From an uncultured Bacteroidales bacterium (GTDB lineage: Bacteria > Bacteroidota > Bacteroidia > Bacteroidales > Paludibacteraceae), in the NCBI GenBank assembly GCA_900319035.1, contig ONMU01000014.1:1-54618 (forward strand): DNA of 54,618 nt. The letters run 5' to 3'. Position 1 is the first letter of the stretch. Each line of letters begins with the position of its first letter. Below the pieces are notes generated by a model. The model was given only the letters and a program-made list of their open reading frames with translations. It made no database searches and was not told the DNA's origin. Made by a program: the position numbers and the translations under genes. Positions 18,511-41,698 of this stretch are shown here, piece after piece.

Positions 18511-19070
18511 TTTATACTAAGACAGGGGATTTAGGTGAGACCTCGCTTGCCAGCGGCAAACGGGTTTCGAAGACTGACGCACGTATTGAGGCGTACGGAA
18601 CAGTAGATGAACTCAACAGCTGGATCGGTTTGTTGAGGGCAGGGATGAAACATTCAGAGTTCAGAGTTCAGAGTTCAGAATTCAGAGTTCAGAGTTCAGA
18701 CGAACAGCTGCAATGGATTCAGAACAAACTGTTCAATCTTGGAGCCGCATTGAGCGATGCTCCCGGTCAGTGGATCCAAGAATCGGATGTGCAGCAGTTG
18801 GAGCAATGGATCGATGCGATGCAGGCAGAGGTGCCGAAACAAAGAGCCTTCATTCTGCCGGCAGGTAGCGAGACAGTCTGCCGATGTCATGTTTGTAGGA
18901 CGGTTTGCCGACGTGCAGAAAGACGTATTGACGTACTCCAAAATACCGAAAATGATGCCCGAAAAGAAGAACTGAAATTTGTGAACCGTTTGAGCGACTA
19001 TTTGTTCGTTTTGTCGCGCTACATCGGTCACCTGCTTGAGGAGCCGGAAGAAGCGTGGAAGCAGGGGTAA
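18507..19070 (+). CDS. Cob(I)alamin adenosyltransferase, PduO type
   Basis: A 187-residue protein that transfers adenosyl from ATP to cob(I)alamin, forming adenosylcobalamin. The PduO/ATR signature is clear: IYTKTGDLGETSLASGKRV, DARIEAYGTVDELNSWIGLL, then the C-terminal CRRAERR, FVNRLSDYLFVLSRYI. It is probably translationally coupled to the methyltransferase (ATGA overlap). A 49-bp array of seven TTCAGAG-type heptamers (18653-18701) is inserted between GLLRAGMK and DEQLQWIQNKLF and adds about 16 residues to a loop. Loss or gain of one 7-bp unit would shift the frame. Confidence 0.92.
   Translation: MIYTKTGDLGETSLASGKRVSKTDARIEAYGTVDELNSWIGLLRAGMKHSEFRVQSSEFRVQSSDEQLQWIQNKLFNLGAALSDAPGQWIQESDVQQLEQWIDAMQAEVPKQRAFILPAGSETVCRCHVCRTVCRRAERRIDVLQNTENDARKEELKFVNRLSDYLFVLSRYIGHLLEEPEEAWKQG
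18653..18701. repeat. Heptamer array inside adenosyltransferase gene
   Basis: Seven consecutive 7-bp units: TTCAGAG x3, TTCAGAA, TTCAGAG x2, TTCAGAC. It is in frame overall with the gene. A 7-bp unit is not a multiple of three, so single-unit slippage would truncate the enzyme. Confidence 0.9.
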
Positions 19071-25379: not shown

Positions 25380-26239
25380 TGCGTAAGCATCGCTTTAGAA
25401 ACTCCTATATGACGGCAGGCGTCAGCGTATCGCTGGTGCTTTGCCTGATAGGAATAGAATGTGTGCTCCTGCTGTCGGCAGGAGCGCTTCTTACGCGCAT
25501 GCGCGAGAACGTGACCATCACAGCCGTCTTGTCTCAAGAGGCAGATAGCACGCAATGTGCCCGTTTGGAGCGTATGTTGGAGGCAAGCGAAGGATATAGC
25601 AGTTTCCGCTATGTCTCCAAAGAGGAAGCTTTGCAGGAACATATTGTCTCGTTGGGAGAAGATCCGACGGCGTTCTTGGGATACAATCCTCTTTCTGCCA
25701 GTTATGAGATCCATCCGTCCGAGCTTTATAGCAATCCGGATAGTTTGGCACAAGAAGCAGAGCGTTTGGAGTCGCTGCCGTATATTTCTGAGGTGCTCTA
25801 TCCGCGGGATTTGACCGATCTGATGAACCGTAACGTACATGATTTCTCGTATATCCTGCTTGGTGTGGCTTTGCTGCTCCTATTGGTGTCCATGGTGTTG
25901 ATTGTCAATACCATCCGTTTGCAGATTTATTCCAAACGCTTTATCATTAACACAATGACGCTGGTGGGTGCCACGTCTTGGGTGACACGTCGTCCGTTTG
26001 TGTTGCGTAATATGCTGATGGGGCTGATTGCCGGTATCGTAGCGCTGATCGTGCTGAGCGGATTGGTCTATTATGTTGAGTTTGAGATGGGCTTGTTCCT
26101 CTTCCCGATTACGTGGATGAATGTTGCTTTTGTATGCGGCGTAGTCTTAGGTAGCGGTTTGCTGATCACGCTCTTTGCTTCTCTCATCGCCACGGGTCGC
26201 TACATCCGTATGGATAATAACTCGTTGTACGAGATTTGA
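25379..26239 (+). CDS. ftsX: Cell division permease-like protein FtsX
   Basis: A 286-residue inner-membrane protein with the FtsX layout: one N-terminal transmembrane helix (~16-38), a periplasmic domain with the FtsX signature (YRYVSKEEALQEH-like, LGYNPLSASYEI), then three C-terminal helices (ILLGVALLLLLVSMVLIVNT, LMGLIAGIVALIVLSGLVYY, CGVVLGSGLLITLFASLI). With the ATPase FtsE (not in this window) it activates peptidoglycan hydrolases at division. ATG 25379 overlaps the gldN stop by 1 nt. Its final codons and stop lie inside a heptamer array that continues to the next start codon. Confidence 0.9.
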   Translation: MRKHRFRNSYMTAGVSVSLVLCLIGIECVLLLSAGALLTRMRENVTITAVLSQEADSTQCARLERMLEASEGYSSFRYVSKEEALQEHIVSLGEDPTAFLGYNPLSASYEIHPSELYSNPDSLAQEAERLESLPYISEVLYPRDLTDLMNRNVHDFSYILLGVALLLLLVSMVLIVNTIRLQIYSKRFIINTMTLVGATSWVTRRPFVLRNMLMGLIAGIVALIVLSGLVYYVEFEMGLFLFPITWMNVAFVCGVVLGSGLLITLFASLIATGRYIRMDNNSLYEI

Positions 26240-26272
26240 TATTTGAGATTTGACATTTGATATTTGACTTTT
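26231..26272. repeat. Six-unit GANATTT heptamer array joining ftsX and the DUF3098 gene
   Basis: Units GAGATTT, GATATTT, GAGATTT, GACATTT, GATATTT, GACTTTT follow without gaps. The array contains the last codons and stop of ftsX (26237-26239) and ends exactly at the next ATG (26273), leaving no other spacer. Confidence 0.9.
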
Positions 26273-29808: not shown

Positions 29809-29867
29809 AAATGACCCATACGGCAAAGCAGATCGTATGAACGAAGTGAATAAAGAAATGGTAAATG
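29809..29867 (+). repeat. 59-bp direct repeat, copy 1 (start of polA)
   Basis: Perfectly identical to 30835-30893. It covers the polA leader and a possible upstream start (ATG 29837) that would add twelve residues, beginning MNEVNKEMVN, before the usual PolA start. Confidence 0.95.
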
Positions 29868-29872
29868 CCCAA

Positions 29873-32239
29873 ATGAAAAAATTACTGTTAGTTGATGCTT
29901 ATGCGATGATCTTTCGCGCATACTACGCATTCATCCGCGCGCCGCGCATGAACAGCAAAGGAGAAAACACCTCTGCTATCTTTGGTTTTTGCGTCACGCT
30001 GGAGGACTTGCTCAAGAAAATCAACCCCACACATGTCGGTGTGGCTTTTGATCCGAAAGGTGGCACGTTCCGTCATGAGGCGTACGAGCAATACAAAGCG
30101 CAGCGTCCCGAGACGCCCGAAGACATCCGCAAGGCGGTGCCTGTGATCAAGCAGATTTTGGAAGCCATGAATATACCCGTGCTGGAAGTACCCGGTTTTG
30201 AGGCGGACGACGTCATCGGCACGCTCTCTCAACAAGGCGAAAAAGCTGGTTTTGAGGTCTATATGGCTACGCCGGATAAGGACTACGGACAGCTCGTCTC
30301 CGACCATGTGTTCATGTATCGTCCCCGTCATACGGGCGGTTTCGAACTGATGGGACCGAAAGAAGTGTGCGATAAATACGGCCTGCAACGCAAGGAACAA
30401 GTCATCGACCTGCTCGGACTCATGGGCGATGCCAGCGATAATATCCCGGGCTGCAAAGGTGTGGGGGAGAAAACAGCTGTGGCTCTCTTGCAGCAGTTCG
30501 GAGACATCGACAATATGCTTGCCCACACGGACGAGATCAAAGGTGCGCTCCGTACGAAAGTGGAGACCCAGACGGAGGAGATCCGTTTCTCGCGGTTCTT
30601 GGCTACTATTCGTACCGATGTGCCGATTGCCTTGGACGAAAACCAGCTGGCGAAGAAAGAGCCCAACATCGAAGCCCTCACAAAACTCTATCAGGAACTC
30701 GAGTTCAACTCCCTCCTCAAGAAACTCGCGCCTTCGTCCATCAATCCGCCCATTTTGGCGGATAAACAGCCCTCCAAGAAAGCCAAACCCGTTGACCCGA
30801 ATCAGCTCGATCTCTTCGCCGAACCCGAAGAGCAAAATGACCCATACGGCAAAGCAGATCGTATGAACGAAGTGAATAAAGAAATGGTAAATGACCAGAT
30901 GGTAAATTCCTTTGATACCATCGAAGCCCGCCTCTGTCAATATCTCCTCAACCCCGAGGTGGCGTTCAATCCTTATAAGGAGCCGAACTGGGATGCCCTC
31001 AAAGCCGATGCCAACTTATGGAACTTGTACAACAACGTCGAGTTGCCGCTGGTGGAAGTCCTGCGCGAGATGGAGGCTGCCGGTGTCCGTATTGACGTTG
31101 CTAAACTCAAAGAGGCGGAGACAGCCTTGACCGAAGAACTGAATACGATCGAGCAACGTATCTACACCCTCGCAGATGGACCGTTCAATATCAACAGTCC
31201 GAAACAAGTGGGCGAACTGCTCTTCGACAAACTCAAACTGGACAGCAAAGCTAAGAAATTGAAGACCGGACAATACTCCACTTCCGAAGAGGTGTTAGTG
31301 GCGCTCAAAGATCGTCATGAGATCGTCGGACTGATCTTGGATTACAGAGCTTTGAGCAAACTGATCACCACCTATATATCCGCTTTGCCGGGCTATATAG
31401 CCGCTGACGGAAAGATCCACACGACTTATAATCAGACCGTTACGGCTACCGGACGTCTCTCTTCCTCGAACCCGAACTTGCAGAACTTGCCTATTCGTTC
31501 CGAACGCGGACGGTTCATCCGTGAGGCGGTTATACCCGATGACGGATGTCTTTTCCTTTCTGCCGATTATAGTCAGATTGAGCTTCGTCTCATGGCGCAT
31601 TTCTCGCAAGACGAACATCTCCTTGCGGCGTTCCGCAACGGGCAGGATGTACACGCCGCTACGGCTGCTAAGATCTTCGGTCTCCCTATCGAACAGGTCA
31701 CCAAAGACCAGCGTCGCAAAGCCAAAACGGCGAACTTCGGAATCATCTATGGTATCTCTGCTTTCGGTCTCTCCCAACAGCTCGATTGCAGCCGTACGGA
31801 AGCCAAACAGCTGATTGACGACTACTTCGCCGCTTTCCCGCGCGTGATAGAATATATTGAGTCTCAGAAAGAACTCGCCCGTCAGAAAGGCTATGCCGAA
31901 ACGCTCTTCGGGCGCAAACGTTACTTGCCGGATATCCATTCCCAGAATGCTACCGTTCGTTCGTTTGCCGAGCGAAACGCGGTTAACGCGCCTATTCAAG
32001 GGACCGCAGCCGACATCATCAAAATGGCTATGGTCTCTATCCACCGCCGTTTGAAAGCGGAGAAGCTGCAAGCCCAGATGACGATGCAGGTTCACGATGA
32101 ACTCAATTTCAACGTCCCTGCCCAAGAAGTCGATCGTGTGCGTGAGATAGTTGTCTCCGAGATGCAGAATGCCGTCCAACTCTCCGTTCCGCTCATCGCC
32201 GAATGTGGAGTCGGACATAACTGGCTCGAAGCACATTAA
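29873..32239 (+). CDS. polA: DNA polymerase I, proofreading domain reduced
   Basis: A 788-residue protein from ATG 29873, which gives the usual PolA N-terminus MKKLLLVDAYAMIFRAYYAF; ATG 29837 in the repeat would add 12 residues. It fills gaps and removes primers in replication and repair. The 5' nuclease domain (~1-285) shows GVAFDPKGGTFRHEAY, VPGFEADDVIGTL, TPDKDYGQLV, GLMGDASDNIPGCKGVGEKTA. The polymerase domain (~385-788) shows TATGRLSSSNPNLQNLPIR, FLSADYSQIELRLMAHFSQD, DQRRKAKTANFGIIYGIS, and QVHDELNFNVP. The 3'-5' exonuclease domain normally found between is nearly absent; only a trace (DTIEARLCQYLLNPE) remains, and a linker encoded by repeat copy 2 takes its place. Confidence 0.93.
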   Translation: MKKLLLVDAYAMIFRAYYAFIRAPRMNSKGENTSAIFGFCVTLEDLLKKINPTHVGVAFDPKGGTFRHEAYEQYKAQRPETPEDIRKAVPVIKQILEAMNIPVLEVPGFEADDVIGTLSQQGEKAGFEVYMATPDKDYGQLVSDHVFMYRPRHTGGFELMGPKEVCDKYGLQRKEQVIDLLGLMGDASDNIPGCKGVGEKTAVALLQQFGDIDNMLAHTDEIKGALRTKVETQTEEIRFSRFLATIRTDVPIALDENQLAKKEPNIEALTKLYQELEFNSLLKKLAPSSINPPILADKQPSKKAKPVDPNQLDLFAEPEEQNDPYGKADRMNEVNKEMVNDQMVNSFDTIEARLCQYLLNPEVAFNPYKEPNWDALKADANLWNLYNNVELPLVEVLREMEAAGVRIDVAKLKEAETALTEELNTIEQRIYTLADGPFNINSPKQVGELLFDKLKLDSKAKKLKTGQYSTSEEVLVALKDRHEIVGLILDYRALSKLITTYISALPGYIAADGKIHTTYNQTVTATGRLSSSNPNLQNLPIRSERGRFIREAVIPDDGCLFLSADYSQIELRLMAHFSQDEHLLAAFRNGQDVHAATAAKIFGLPIEQVTKDQRRKAKTANFGIIYGISAFGLSQQLDCSRTEAKQLIDDYFAAFPRVIEYIESQKELARQKGYAETLFGRKRYLPDIHSQNATVRSFAERNAVNAPIQGTAADIIKMAMVSIHRRLKAEKLQAQMTMQVHDELNFNVPAQEVDRVREIVVSEMQNAVQLSVPLIAECGVGHNWLEAH
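30835..30893 (+). repeat. 59-bp direct repeat, copy 2 (inside polA)
   Basis: Identical to 29809-29867, 1,026 bp (342 codons) downstream and in the same frame. It encodes the inter-domain linker and carries an internal ATG (30863) in the same context as ATG 29837. Confidence 0.95.
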
Positions 32240-32270: not shown

Positions 32271-32325
32271 TATCGGTCCAATGTCGGTCCAATGTCGGTC
32301 CAATATCGGTCCAATATCGGACCAA
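32271..32325. repeat. Five 11-bp tandem repeats after polA
   Basis: Five consecutive units TRTCGGWCCAA with one or two changes. They lie 32 bp after the polA stop, ahead of the DUF4886 gene. No clear terminator is seen in this spacer. Confidence 0.9.
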
Positions 32326-32377
32326 TCCTAGACCTTTGCCCTTATTATCGTGTAACAATCACGGACGTATTAGCATA

Positions 32378-33193
32378 ATGAAAACGATTTTATCCATATT
32401 GATGCTTATCCGTATACTCTGTATCGGAAATAGCTTTTCTTGGGACGCTGTGGAGCAGGAACTCGTGCCGCTCTGCGATGCCAAGAACATAGAGATCGAG
32501 GTGCATAACCTCTATTACGGCGGTTGTTCCTTAGCCCAACACGCAGAGTTCCTGCTCAAAGACACCGCCGCCTATTCTCATCGTGTCTGCACAAATCCTC
32601 AAATCCTCAAATCTTCAAATCCTCAAATTCGCGAAATCCGAGACACGATTTCGCTACGCAAGGCGCTCAAGGACGGTAAATACGATTACATCTCCCTGCA
32701 GCAAGCAAGTCATGACTCCGGTATCAAGTCTTCGTACGAGCCTTGGCTCTCCATGCTCATCGACACTGTCCGTGCGTATCAGCCCGAGGCGCAACTCTGC
32801 TGGATGCAGACCTGGGCGTATAGCCAAGACGCCAAACATCCGGCTTATCCCCTCTACCATAACAACCAGCAGGAGATGTGGGATTCTATCCAAGCTTGCA
32901 CGCGCTACGTGCAGCAAAAATGTCAAATGTCAAATGTCAATTGTCAAATTATCCCTTGCGGTTTGGCTGTCCAGAACGCACGTCAAACGAAATTAGGAGA
33001 CACCCTTTGCCGAGATGGTTACCATCTGAACTATATCTACGGTCGTTATACGGCAGCCTGCGTGTGGTACGAGATCGTAACCGGAAAAGATGTTCGTAAG
33101 AACCGCTATATGAACCCGCAGATGACCAAAACTCAACGCAAACTAACGCAGAAAGCTGCCCACAACGCAACAAAAAAGAGATGTCCTATTTGA
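32378..33193 (+). CDS. DUF4886 SGNH-like hydrolase with two repeat insertions
   Basis: A 271-residue protein, probably exported or membrane-associated (short hydrophobic N-terminus MKTILSILMLIRILC). Block I is ILCIGNSFSWDAVEQ (nucleophile Ser in GNSFS), then YYGGCSLAQH, DYISLQQASHDSG, and CRDGYHLNYIYGRYTAACVWYE carrying the Asp/His block. DUF4886 proteins are SGNH hydrolase-like; the substrate is unknown. Two loops are encoded by short tandem repeats: an octamer array (32592-32631; TNPQILKSSNPQIR) and a heptamer array (32921-32948; QMSNVNCQ). Its last codons and stop (33191-33193) lie inside the terminator hairpin of the opposite-strand tRNA gene. Confidence 0.8.
   Translation: MKTILSILMLIRILCIGNSFSWDAVEQELVPLCDAKNIEIEVHNLYYGGCSLAQHAEFLLKDTAAYSHRVCTNPQILKSSNPQIREIRDTISLRKALKDGKYDYISLQQASHDSGIKSSYEPWLSMLIDTVRAYQPEAQLCWMQTWAYSQDAKHPAYPLYHNNQQEMWDSIQACTRYVQQKCQMSNVNCQIIPCGLAVQNARQTKLGDTLCRDGYHLNYIYGRYTAACVWYEIVTGKDVRKNRYMNPQMTKTQRKLTQKAAHNATKKRCPI
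32592..32631. repeat. Octamer array inside DUF4886 gene
   Basis: CAAATCCT, CAAATCCT, CAAATCTT, CAAATCCT, CAAATTCG: five 8-bp units read in frame as a polar loop. Confidence 0.88.
32921..32948. repeat. Heptamer array inside DUF4886 gene
   Basis: TGTCAAA x2, TGTCAAT, TGTCAAA: four 7-bp units within the coding sequence, unlike the octamer 300 bp upstream. Confidence 0.88.
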
Positions 33194-41657: not shown

Positions 41658-41665
41658 CCGATAAA

Positions 41666-41693
41666 GTTGAAAGTTGAAAGTTGAAAGTTTAAA
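41666..41693. repeat. Heptamer array between umuD and umuC
   Basis: GTTGAAA x3 then GTTTAAA, four 7-bp units filling the spacer and ending 5 bp from the umuD stop. Confidence 0.9.
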
Positions 41694-41698
41694 GGAGT

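Follow-up and report, generated by a model that had tools for sequence, protein, structure and literature searches.

The window analyzed here, the whole 54,618-nt stretch of contig ONMU01000014.1 (assembly GCA_900319035.1) from an uncultured Bacteroidales bacterium of the family Paludibacteraceae, carries a polA gene next to ung and, at this gene, two copies of a perfect direct repeat (Table 1). The copies, 29809-29867 and 30835-30893, both on the plus strand, are identical at 59 of 59 bases, and the identity extends 0 bases beyond either side; their spacing of 1,026 bp is a multiple of 3, and they are in the same frame. Given that the next longest direct repeat in the surrounding 4.5 kb is only 20 nt long, a chance origin of the 59-mer is excluded. 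An earlier note on this DNA, which had drawn attention to the repeat, reckoned an open frame from ATG 29837; as the start of polA, this candidate is ruled out. The conserved PolA start (MKKLLL[VI]DAYAM) is instead ATG 29873, because the protein of the relatives begins at the equivalent position, directly after a short spacer, and copy 1 is therefore leader DNA in the ung-polA spacer. When the open reading frame is numbered from ATG 29837, the Pfam matches to the 5'-nuclease and the polymerase cover residues 15-277 and 423-798, respectively; the notion that the repeats bracket the 5'-nuclease domain holds only to this extent: copy 1 precedes the gene, and copy 2 lies in the linker that follows the domain. 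Between the nuclease and the polymerase, the PolA protein (29873-32239) contains no Pfam 3'-5' exonuclease domain, and close relatives are similarly short in this region.

Table 1. Coordinates of polA, the two 39-nt element copies and their flanking micro-repeat parts in the window
Feature	Position	Strand	Remarks
polA coding sequence	29873..32239	+	788 aa; start common to relatives; Pfam 5_3_exonuc_N, 5_3_exonuc, DNA_pol_A
Left micro-repeat part AAATGACC, copy 1	29809..29816	+	Element-less relative L045 has AAATGAAC
Element copy 1, 39 nt	29817..29855	+	ung-polA spacer, 17 nt ahead of conserved polA start
Hairpin region, copy 1 (element columns 21-35)	29837..29851	+	Contains ATG 29837; covariation, 41 distinct elements
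Right micro-repeat part AAATGGTAAATGCCCAAATG, copy 1	29856..29875	+	Ends in conserved polA start codon; same in element-less L045
Left micro-repeat part AAATGACC, copy 2	30835..30842	+	Same in element-less L093 and L045
Element copy 2, 39 nt, 13 extra residues	30843..30881	+	PolA interdomain linker; identical to copy 1
Hairpin region, copy 2 (element columns 21-35)	30863..30877	+	Contains ATG 30863; covariation, 41 distinct elements
Right micro-repeat part AAATGGTAAATGACCAGATGGTAAAT, copy 2	30882..30907	+	Encodes MVNDQMVN; matches the relatives' linker array

Comparison with orthologous empty sites resolves each 59-mer into a 39-nt insert between AAATGACC and AAATGGTAAATG, both of which are parts of a 15-nt micro-repeat already found in the relatives; by these borders, the 59 bp consist of 8 nt of micro-repeat, 39 nt of element and 12 nt of micro-repeat. 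In the polA linker, L045 and RUG715 (L093), a near relative with 96% identity in the best tblastn segment, both read AAATGACC followed immediately by AAATGGTAAATGACC; at exactly this junction, the sequence of the window is 39 bases longer. In the polA leader, L045 is empty (AAATGAAC followed by AAATGG), and the element occupies this point in both L093 and the window. A third pair comes from an Amidase_3 gene of the genome under study (L002), which is filled, as is its counterpart in RUG715 (L242), as opposed to the empty L244. This was the one clean empty site found among the three own-genome loci where such sites were sought; at the other two, L039 and L005, the element is absent from 6 and 5 aligned relatives, respectively, which carry other repeats or sequence in its place, with no clean empty site. 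No target duplication was detected at the three loci with clean filled/empty pairs, namely, the polA linker, the polA leader and L002. The leader insertion, common to the window and RUG715, is the older one, predating the split between the two, and the linker insertion, seen only in the window, is the younger.

Fetched loci yielded 123 distinct element matches; besides truncated or masked matches and other length classes, this sample includes matches that arose by chance at 3 mismatches, for example those in L043, L071 and L096. Full 39-nt elements account for 81 of the 123 and comprise 42 distinct sequences; some of these copies are orthologous insertions in sister species and are therefore not independent. 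The layout of the unit is a nearly constant 5' part, CATACRGCRAAGCAGATCGT, followed by a 15-nt hairpin region and then, usually, WWAG. The element is followed by AAAT in 74 of the 81 copies, with the reservation that the 39-nt class is defined in part by AA after the element, and the base on its 5' side is C in 71 copies, G in 8, A in 1 and T in 1. Insertion takes place in short tandem repeats that are already present, at a junction of C and AAA. In addition to the AAATGGTAAATGACC array, the 39-nt unit is found in arrays of AAATCTG (L034, L042), AAATGTC/AAATCTC (L008) and CTCAACT (L020). The own-genome copy in L002 is identical to the two polA copies. Two other length classes have the same 5' 20 nt. 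The class found in L010, L188 and L211 is about 55 nt long, with a GGCTT...AAGCC hairpin, and occurs in head-to-tail pairs; that of L129, L133 and L141 measures about 35 nt and has a GCCC...GGGC hairpin.

The window also contains other short tandem arrays, at 18653-18700, 26231-26272, 32271-32326, 32592-32628, 32918-32949 and 41663-41694, with the units TTCAGAG, GAGATTTGACATTT, TATCGGTCCAA, CAAATCCT, AAATGTC and AAAGTTG, several of which are 7 nt long; one of these arrays lies directly behind polA and two lie inside the next open reading frame.

The 3' 15-nt region of the element shows strong signs, in the alignment, of a hairpin with covarying arms, which flank G.A oppositions and a triloop. 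In 41 of the 42 distinct sequences, taken together, the column pairs 21-35, 22-34, 25-31 and 26-30 contain standard pairs in 96.3% of the cells, compared with a mean of 64.5% after shuffling; 50 cells are changed on both sides, as against 16.3 in the shuffled alignments; and the covariation score is 0.831, compared with 0.272 for the shuffled and at most 0.144 for the slid versions. Each of these three values was reached by 0 of 500 shuffles. Two further measures are not exceptional: the number of pairs with a change on both sides (4) was reached by 367 of 500 shuffles and the number of pair types (6) by 500 of 500. The G.A and A.G oppositions between the pair doublets are nearly invariant (39 and 37 of 42, respectively) and resemble those of GA-mismatch mini-hairpins. 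When single 39-nt elements are folded as RNA at minimum energy, the covarying hairpin does not appear, so that the case for it rests on covariation; the GCCC...GGGC class is an exception in that its RNA fold shows the stem of its own. The CATACG/CGTATG hairpin that appears in the RNA fold of the window copy was rejected as a family structure, since 71.1% of the cells are paired and none is changed on both sides. Two hairpins in the 5' part, CGA..TCG and GC..GC, are compatible but nearly invariant. The ATG shared by the two polA copies, which the earlier note had treated as a potentially meaningful start, corresponds to element columns 21-23, that is, to the 5' arm of the covarying hairpin; column 21 is T in 28 of the 42 distinct elements, and the ATG is not conserved in the family.

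For searches beyond the locus, the 20-nt 5' part CATACRGCRAAGCAGATCGT served as the core pattern, with mismatches allowed and the reversed pattern as the control. At up to 2 mismatches, the core is present in 92 of the 178 genomes of this Paludibacteraceae genus, with 0 control hits among the matches listed. The genome under study itself has 11 core matches at this threshold, so the repeat is not restricted to polA; with 3 mismatches allowed, this genome gives 12 core matches and 1 control match. In a family-wide sample of 150 genomes, 4 of the 13 that belong to this genus have the core at no more than 1 mismatch, and it was found in none of the 137 genomes sampled from other Paludibacteraceae genera (32 genera), one of which had a control match. 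When a 91-base segment around copy 1 was used as a BLAST query, the own genome returned 10 matches, of which six were strong, the two polA copies being among these six; at E values of 0.001 or less, 9 of 41 genomes were matched, the own one included. The nearest polA loci belong to uncultured Bacteroidales or Paludibacteraceae, many of them from the rumen. The micro-repeat is also largely confined to the genus: an exact 14-mer of it occurs in 22 of 37 genus genomes compared with 2 of 24 from outside it, and 5 of these 61 genomes gave control matches. A search of viral contigs for the exact core was negative, and plasmids gave no match; 25-nt matches in three Pseudomonas phage records, with an E value of 0.4, were judged to be due to chance. 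Rfam covariance models applied to 10 loci detected nothing at the element, with one sub-threshold match elsewhere, and no description of the 39-nt element was found within the open-access papers searched. The pattern of presence and absence points to mobility, and the suggestion that the repeat reflects a recent duplication or an active element gains support in that the linker copy is absent from RUG715 and the element is dispersed through the genus.

Within polA, the setting of copy 2 is a linker that is hypervariable in the relatives. The comparison covered 77 polA loci, 76 of them from relatives, and the linker could be delimited in 53; the element is present in that of the window alone. 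A micro-repeat of the QMVND type occurs in 10 of the 52 relatives' linkers, and others carry unrelated repeats, for example PSPVTGN, ANSQEPTA or a palindrome of GGGAGG. With 3 substitutions allowed, the core was found once among 79 relative loci (L044-L122), in the leader of L093, and in none of their linkers, with 0 control matches; the matches of L071 and L096 to a looser core pattern were judged to be chance. In an AlphaFold model (22 sequences), the mean pLDDT of PolA is 81.7 and falls below 50 at residues 287-345 of 788; the insert, residues 324-337 of 788, lies inside this stretch, and copy 2 is accordingly predicted to sit in a disordered linker following the 5'-nuclease domain. A second small palindromic repeat, which is G-rich (CTCCCTCCCTTG..GGGGAGGGA..GGGG), is found in frame in the PolA linkers of other species (L057, L062, L066, L070, L100 and L108) and also in L254 and L268.

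Insertion into coding sequence is frequent in the family. By a crude criterion, at least 40 codons on each side of the element, 27 of the 81 39-nt copies lie inside same-strand open reading frames (25 frames), 24 of them in a single phase, which reads NDPYGEADR..., and 2 and 1 in the other two; in 7 of the 27, the antisense strand is open as well. Pfam matches were obtained for 16 of the 20 in-gene proteins scanned. The hosts include Amidase_3, chorismate synthase, FGGY kinase, Sua5/YrdC, GH88, GH32 (two insertions), HAD, metallophosphatase (two insertions), RlmL-type methyltransferase, GH97, histidine kinase ATPase, M20 peptidase, Mur ligase, PD40, GNAT and the exonuclease VII large subunit. 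Antisense-only frames served as a control: 9 of the 10 have no Pfam match and, in the tenth (L185), a DUF1016 domain starts after the element, such that no antisense in-gene copy was confirmed by Pfam among these 10. Of the remaining 54 copies, 32 lie ahead of a sense frame only (within 90 nt of an open reading frame of at least 80 aa), 3 ahead of an antisense frame only, 4 ahead of both and 15 ahead of neither; the totals are 36 sense and 7 antisense, with 4 copies counted in both. The element-less micro-repeat arrays, too small a set for comparison, are distributed as 12 in sense frames (7 of which are open on both strands), 1 in antisense only and 6 in none.

Taken together, these observations make it likely that the 59-bp repeat represents two insertions of a non-autonomous, SDR-like mobile element of 39 nt that is passively tolerated in polA. 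In this view, a single strand of DNA or RNA that bears the hairpin would be copied and pasted into array junctions by machinery encoded elsewhere and acting in trans; the insert would be tolerated in polA because it only lengthens a disordered, hypervariable linker. The observation in the earlier note is confirmed and its interpretation is partly supported. The arithmetic of that interpretation is correct, as either a deletion through recombination of the two repeats or initiation at ATG 30863 yields an open frame of 458 aa without internal stops (51.6 kDa, as computed for the latter); however, the element is genome-wide, its linker copy is absent from the relatives examined and the ATG is not conserved in the family, so that a role of the repeats in producing a Klenow-like polymerase, by loss of the nuclease domain or by internal initiation, appears extremely improbable. 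It is also very improbable that copy 2 was mis-joined in the contig: although this is a single metagenome-assembled genome and repeats are often misassembled, the sequence on either side of copy 2 agrees with the orthologous empty linker and not with the leader, and the insertion obeys the junction rule of other genomes and keeps the frame.

Two other routes compete with insertion of a mobile element. Gene conversion or illegitimate recombination between micro-repeat arrays could have carried the 39-nt block, taken from the leader or from another copy, into the linker as a passenger. The 15-nt micro-repeat around the two polA copies is the same, arrays of it are common in the genus, and copy 2 does not differ from copy 1 or from the copy in L002; for the many copies that share this array, spread by array recombination is therefore possible. 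Yet precise 39-nt units with the same borders occur in the unrelated arrays AAATCTG, AAATGTC and CTCAACT, and the shared homology at the polA sites amounts to merely 8 and 12 nt. Unlikely as an account overall, array recombination is a serious rival for the copies in the common 15-nt array and less so for those in unrelated heptamers. The other route, transposition of a REP/REPIN-like element by a RAYT (Y1 transposase), would fit a small hairpin element that leaves no target duplication. Genes for Y1 (RAYT-like) proteins were found in 68 of the 178 genus genomes and are enriched in carriers of the element (45 of 92, compared with 23 of 86 non-carriers; Fisher p 0.003, a test that ignores kinship and completeness). 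Nevertheless, no Y1 gene was detected in 47 of the 92 carriers, the core is near a Y1 gene at 0 of 33 genus loci (flanks of about 1.5 kb, shorter at contig ends) and at 0 of 29 in a first set of loci (7 common to the 33), and the aligned elements have no GTAG or CGTC end tag; mobilization by a RAYT is thus distinctly unlikely. On contig C64 of the own genome, a 333-aa Y1/RAYT-like protein with a long C-terminal extension and a weak PF01797 match is encoded from position 1441 of L225 onward; it has a close homologue in L226 (genome G007), and the element core is not nearby.

A bolder form of the insertion hypothesis, which we consider unlikely, is that of a 39-nt hairpin parasite copied into tandem-repeat junctions in a strand-specific manner, either coupled to mRNA or as single-stranded DNA. 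Such a parasite would be among the smallest mobile elements known; with a length of 13 codons and one sense frame free of stops, it could persist within coding sequence; and its signature would be the sense bias, that is, 27 copies in sense frames with no confirmed antisense in-gene copy, and 36 copies ahead of sense frames versus 7 ahead of antisense ones, 4 of them counted in both.

Among the known systems, the cyanobacterial SDRs are closest in behaviour to the 39-nt element. The SDR elements of Nostoc and its relatives, ascribed to Elhai (2008), are reportedly 21-27 nt long. The likeness includes very small dispersed units embedded in short tandem repeats, hairpins backed by compensatory change (here, with three of five measures beyond all shuffles), precise insertion at a fixed motif, confinement to one clade and no known enzyme. 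The differences lie in the length (39 nt compared with 21-27 nt), the phylum, the frequency of in-frame copies in housekeeping genes and, presumably, the sequences themselves. SDR5 inserts precisely within HIP1 (PMC4390886). The Rickettsia palindromic elements are described as 105-146 bp long, with terminal inverted repeats; they lie both in intergenic regions and, in frame, within conserved protein genes (PMC2229807); the 39-nt element shares with them the in-frame insertion within genes but is much shorter, has no terminal inverted repeats and prefers tandem-repeat junctions. The GTAG/CGTC REPs and REPINs are hairpin repeats of 20-40 bp (PMC3733652, PMC3116915), with published insertions in DNA polymerase I and other repair genes (PMC3733652). 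They resemble our element as small hairpin repeats with intragenic copies, whereas the element has CATAC and, mostly, WWAG as its two ends rather than a GTAG/CGTC tag, has no linked RAYT that we could find and resides inside tandem arrays. Assignment to MITEs was rejected: there are no terminal inverted repeats, the CATACG/CGTATG stem being neither terminal at both ends nor kept in the family, and no target-site duplication at the three clean loci. Heptanucleotide arrays known as STRRs occur in cyanobacteria. Several of the target arrays of the element are likewise 7-nt tandem repeats, but the element is a discrete insert in the array rather than an array unit, and the commonest array unit is 15 nt long.

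We regard the element as a case of SDR-like behaviour in a different phylum and with a presumably unrelated sequence, and its location in polA as incidental. A presumed oddity of one polA gene thereby becomes a genus-wide system in which a 39-nt unit is found inserted, at base resolution, into tandem repeats and also, in frame, within conserved enzymes. The natural filled/empty pairs found here allow one to ask how elements far too small to encode anything get copied, a question that the cyanobacterial SDRs raise as well. In these rumen bacteria, the findings suggest, several repeat families use the linkers and loops of housekeeping proteins as landing sites, such that variation in the length of linkers and loops may reflect repeat traffic rather than function.
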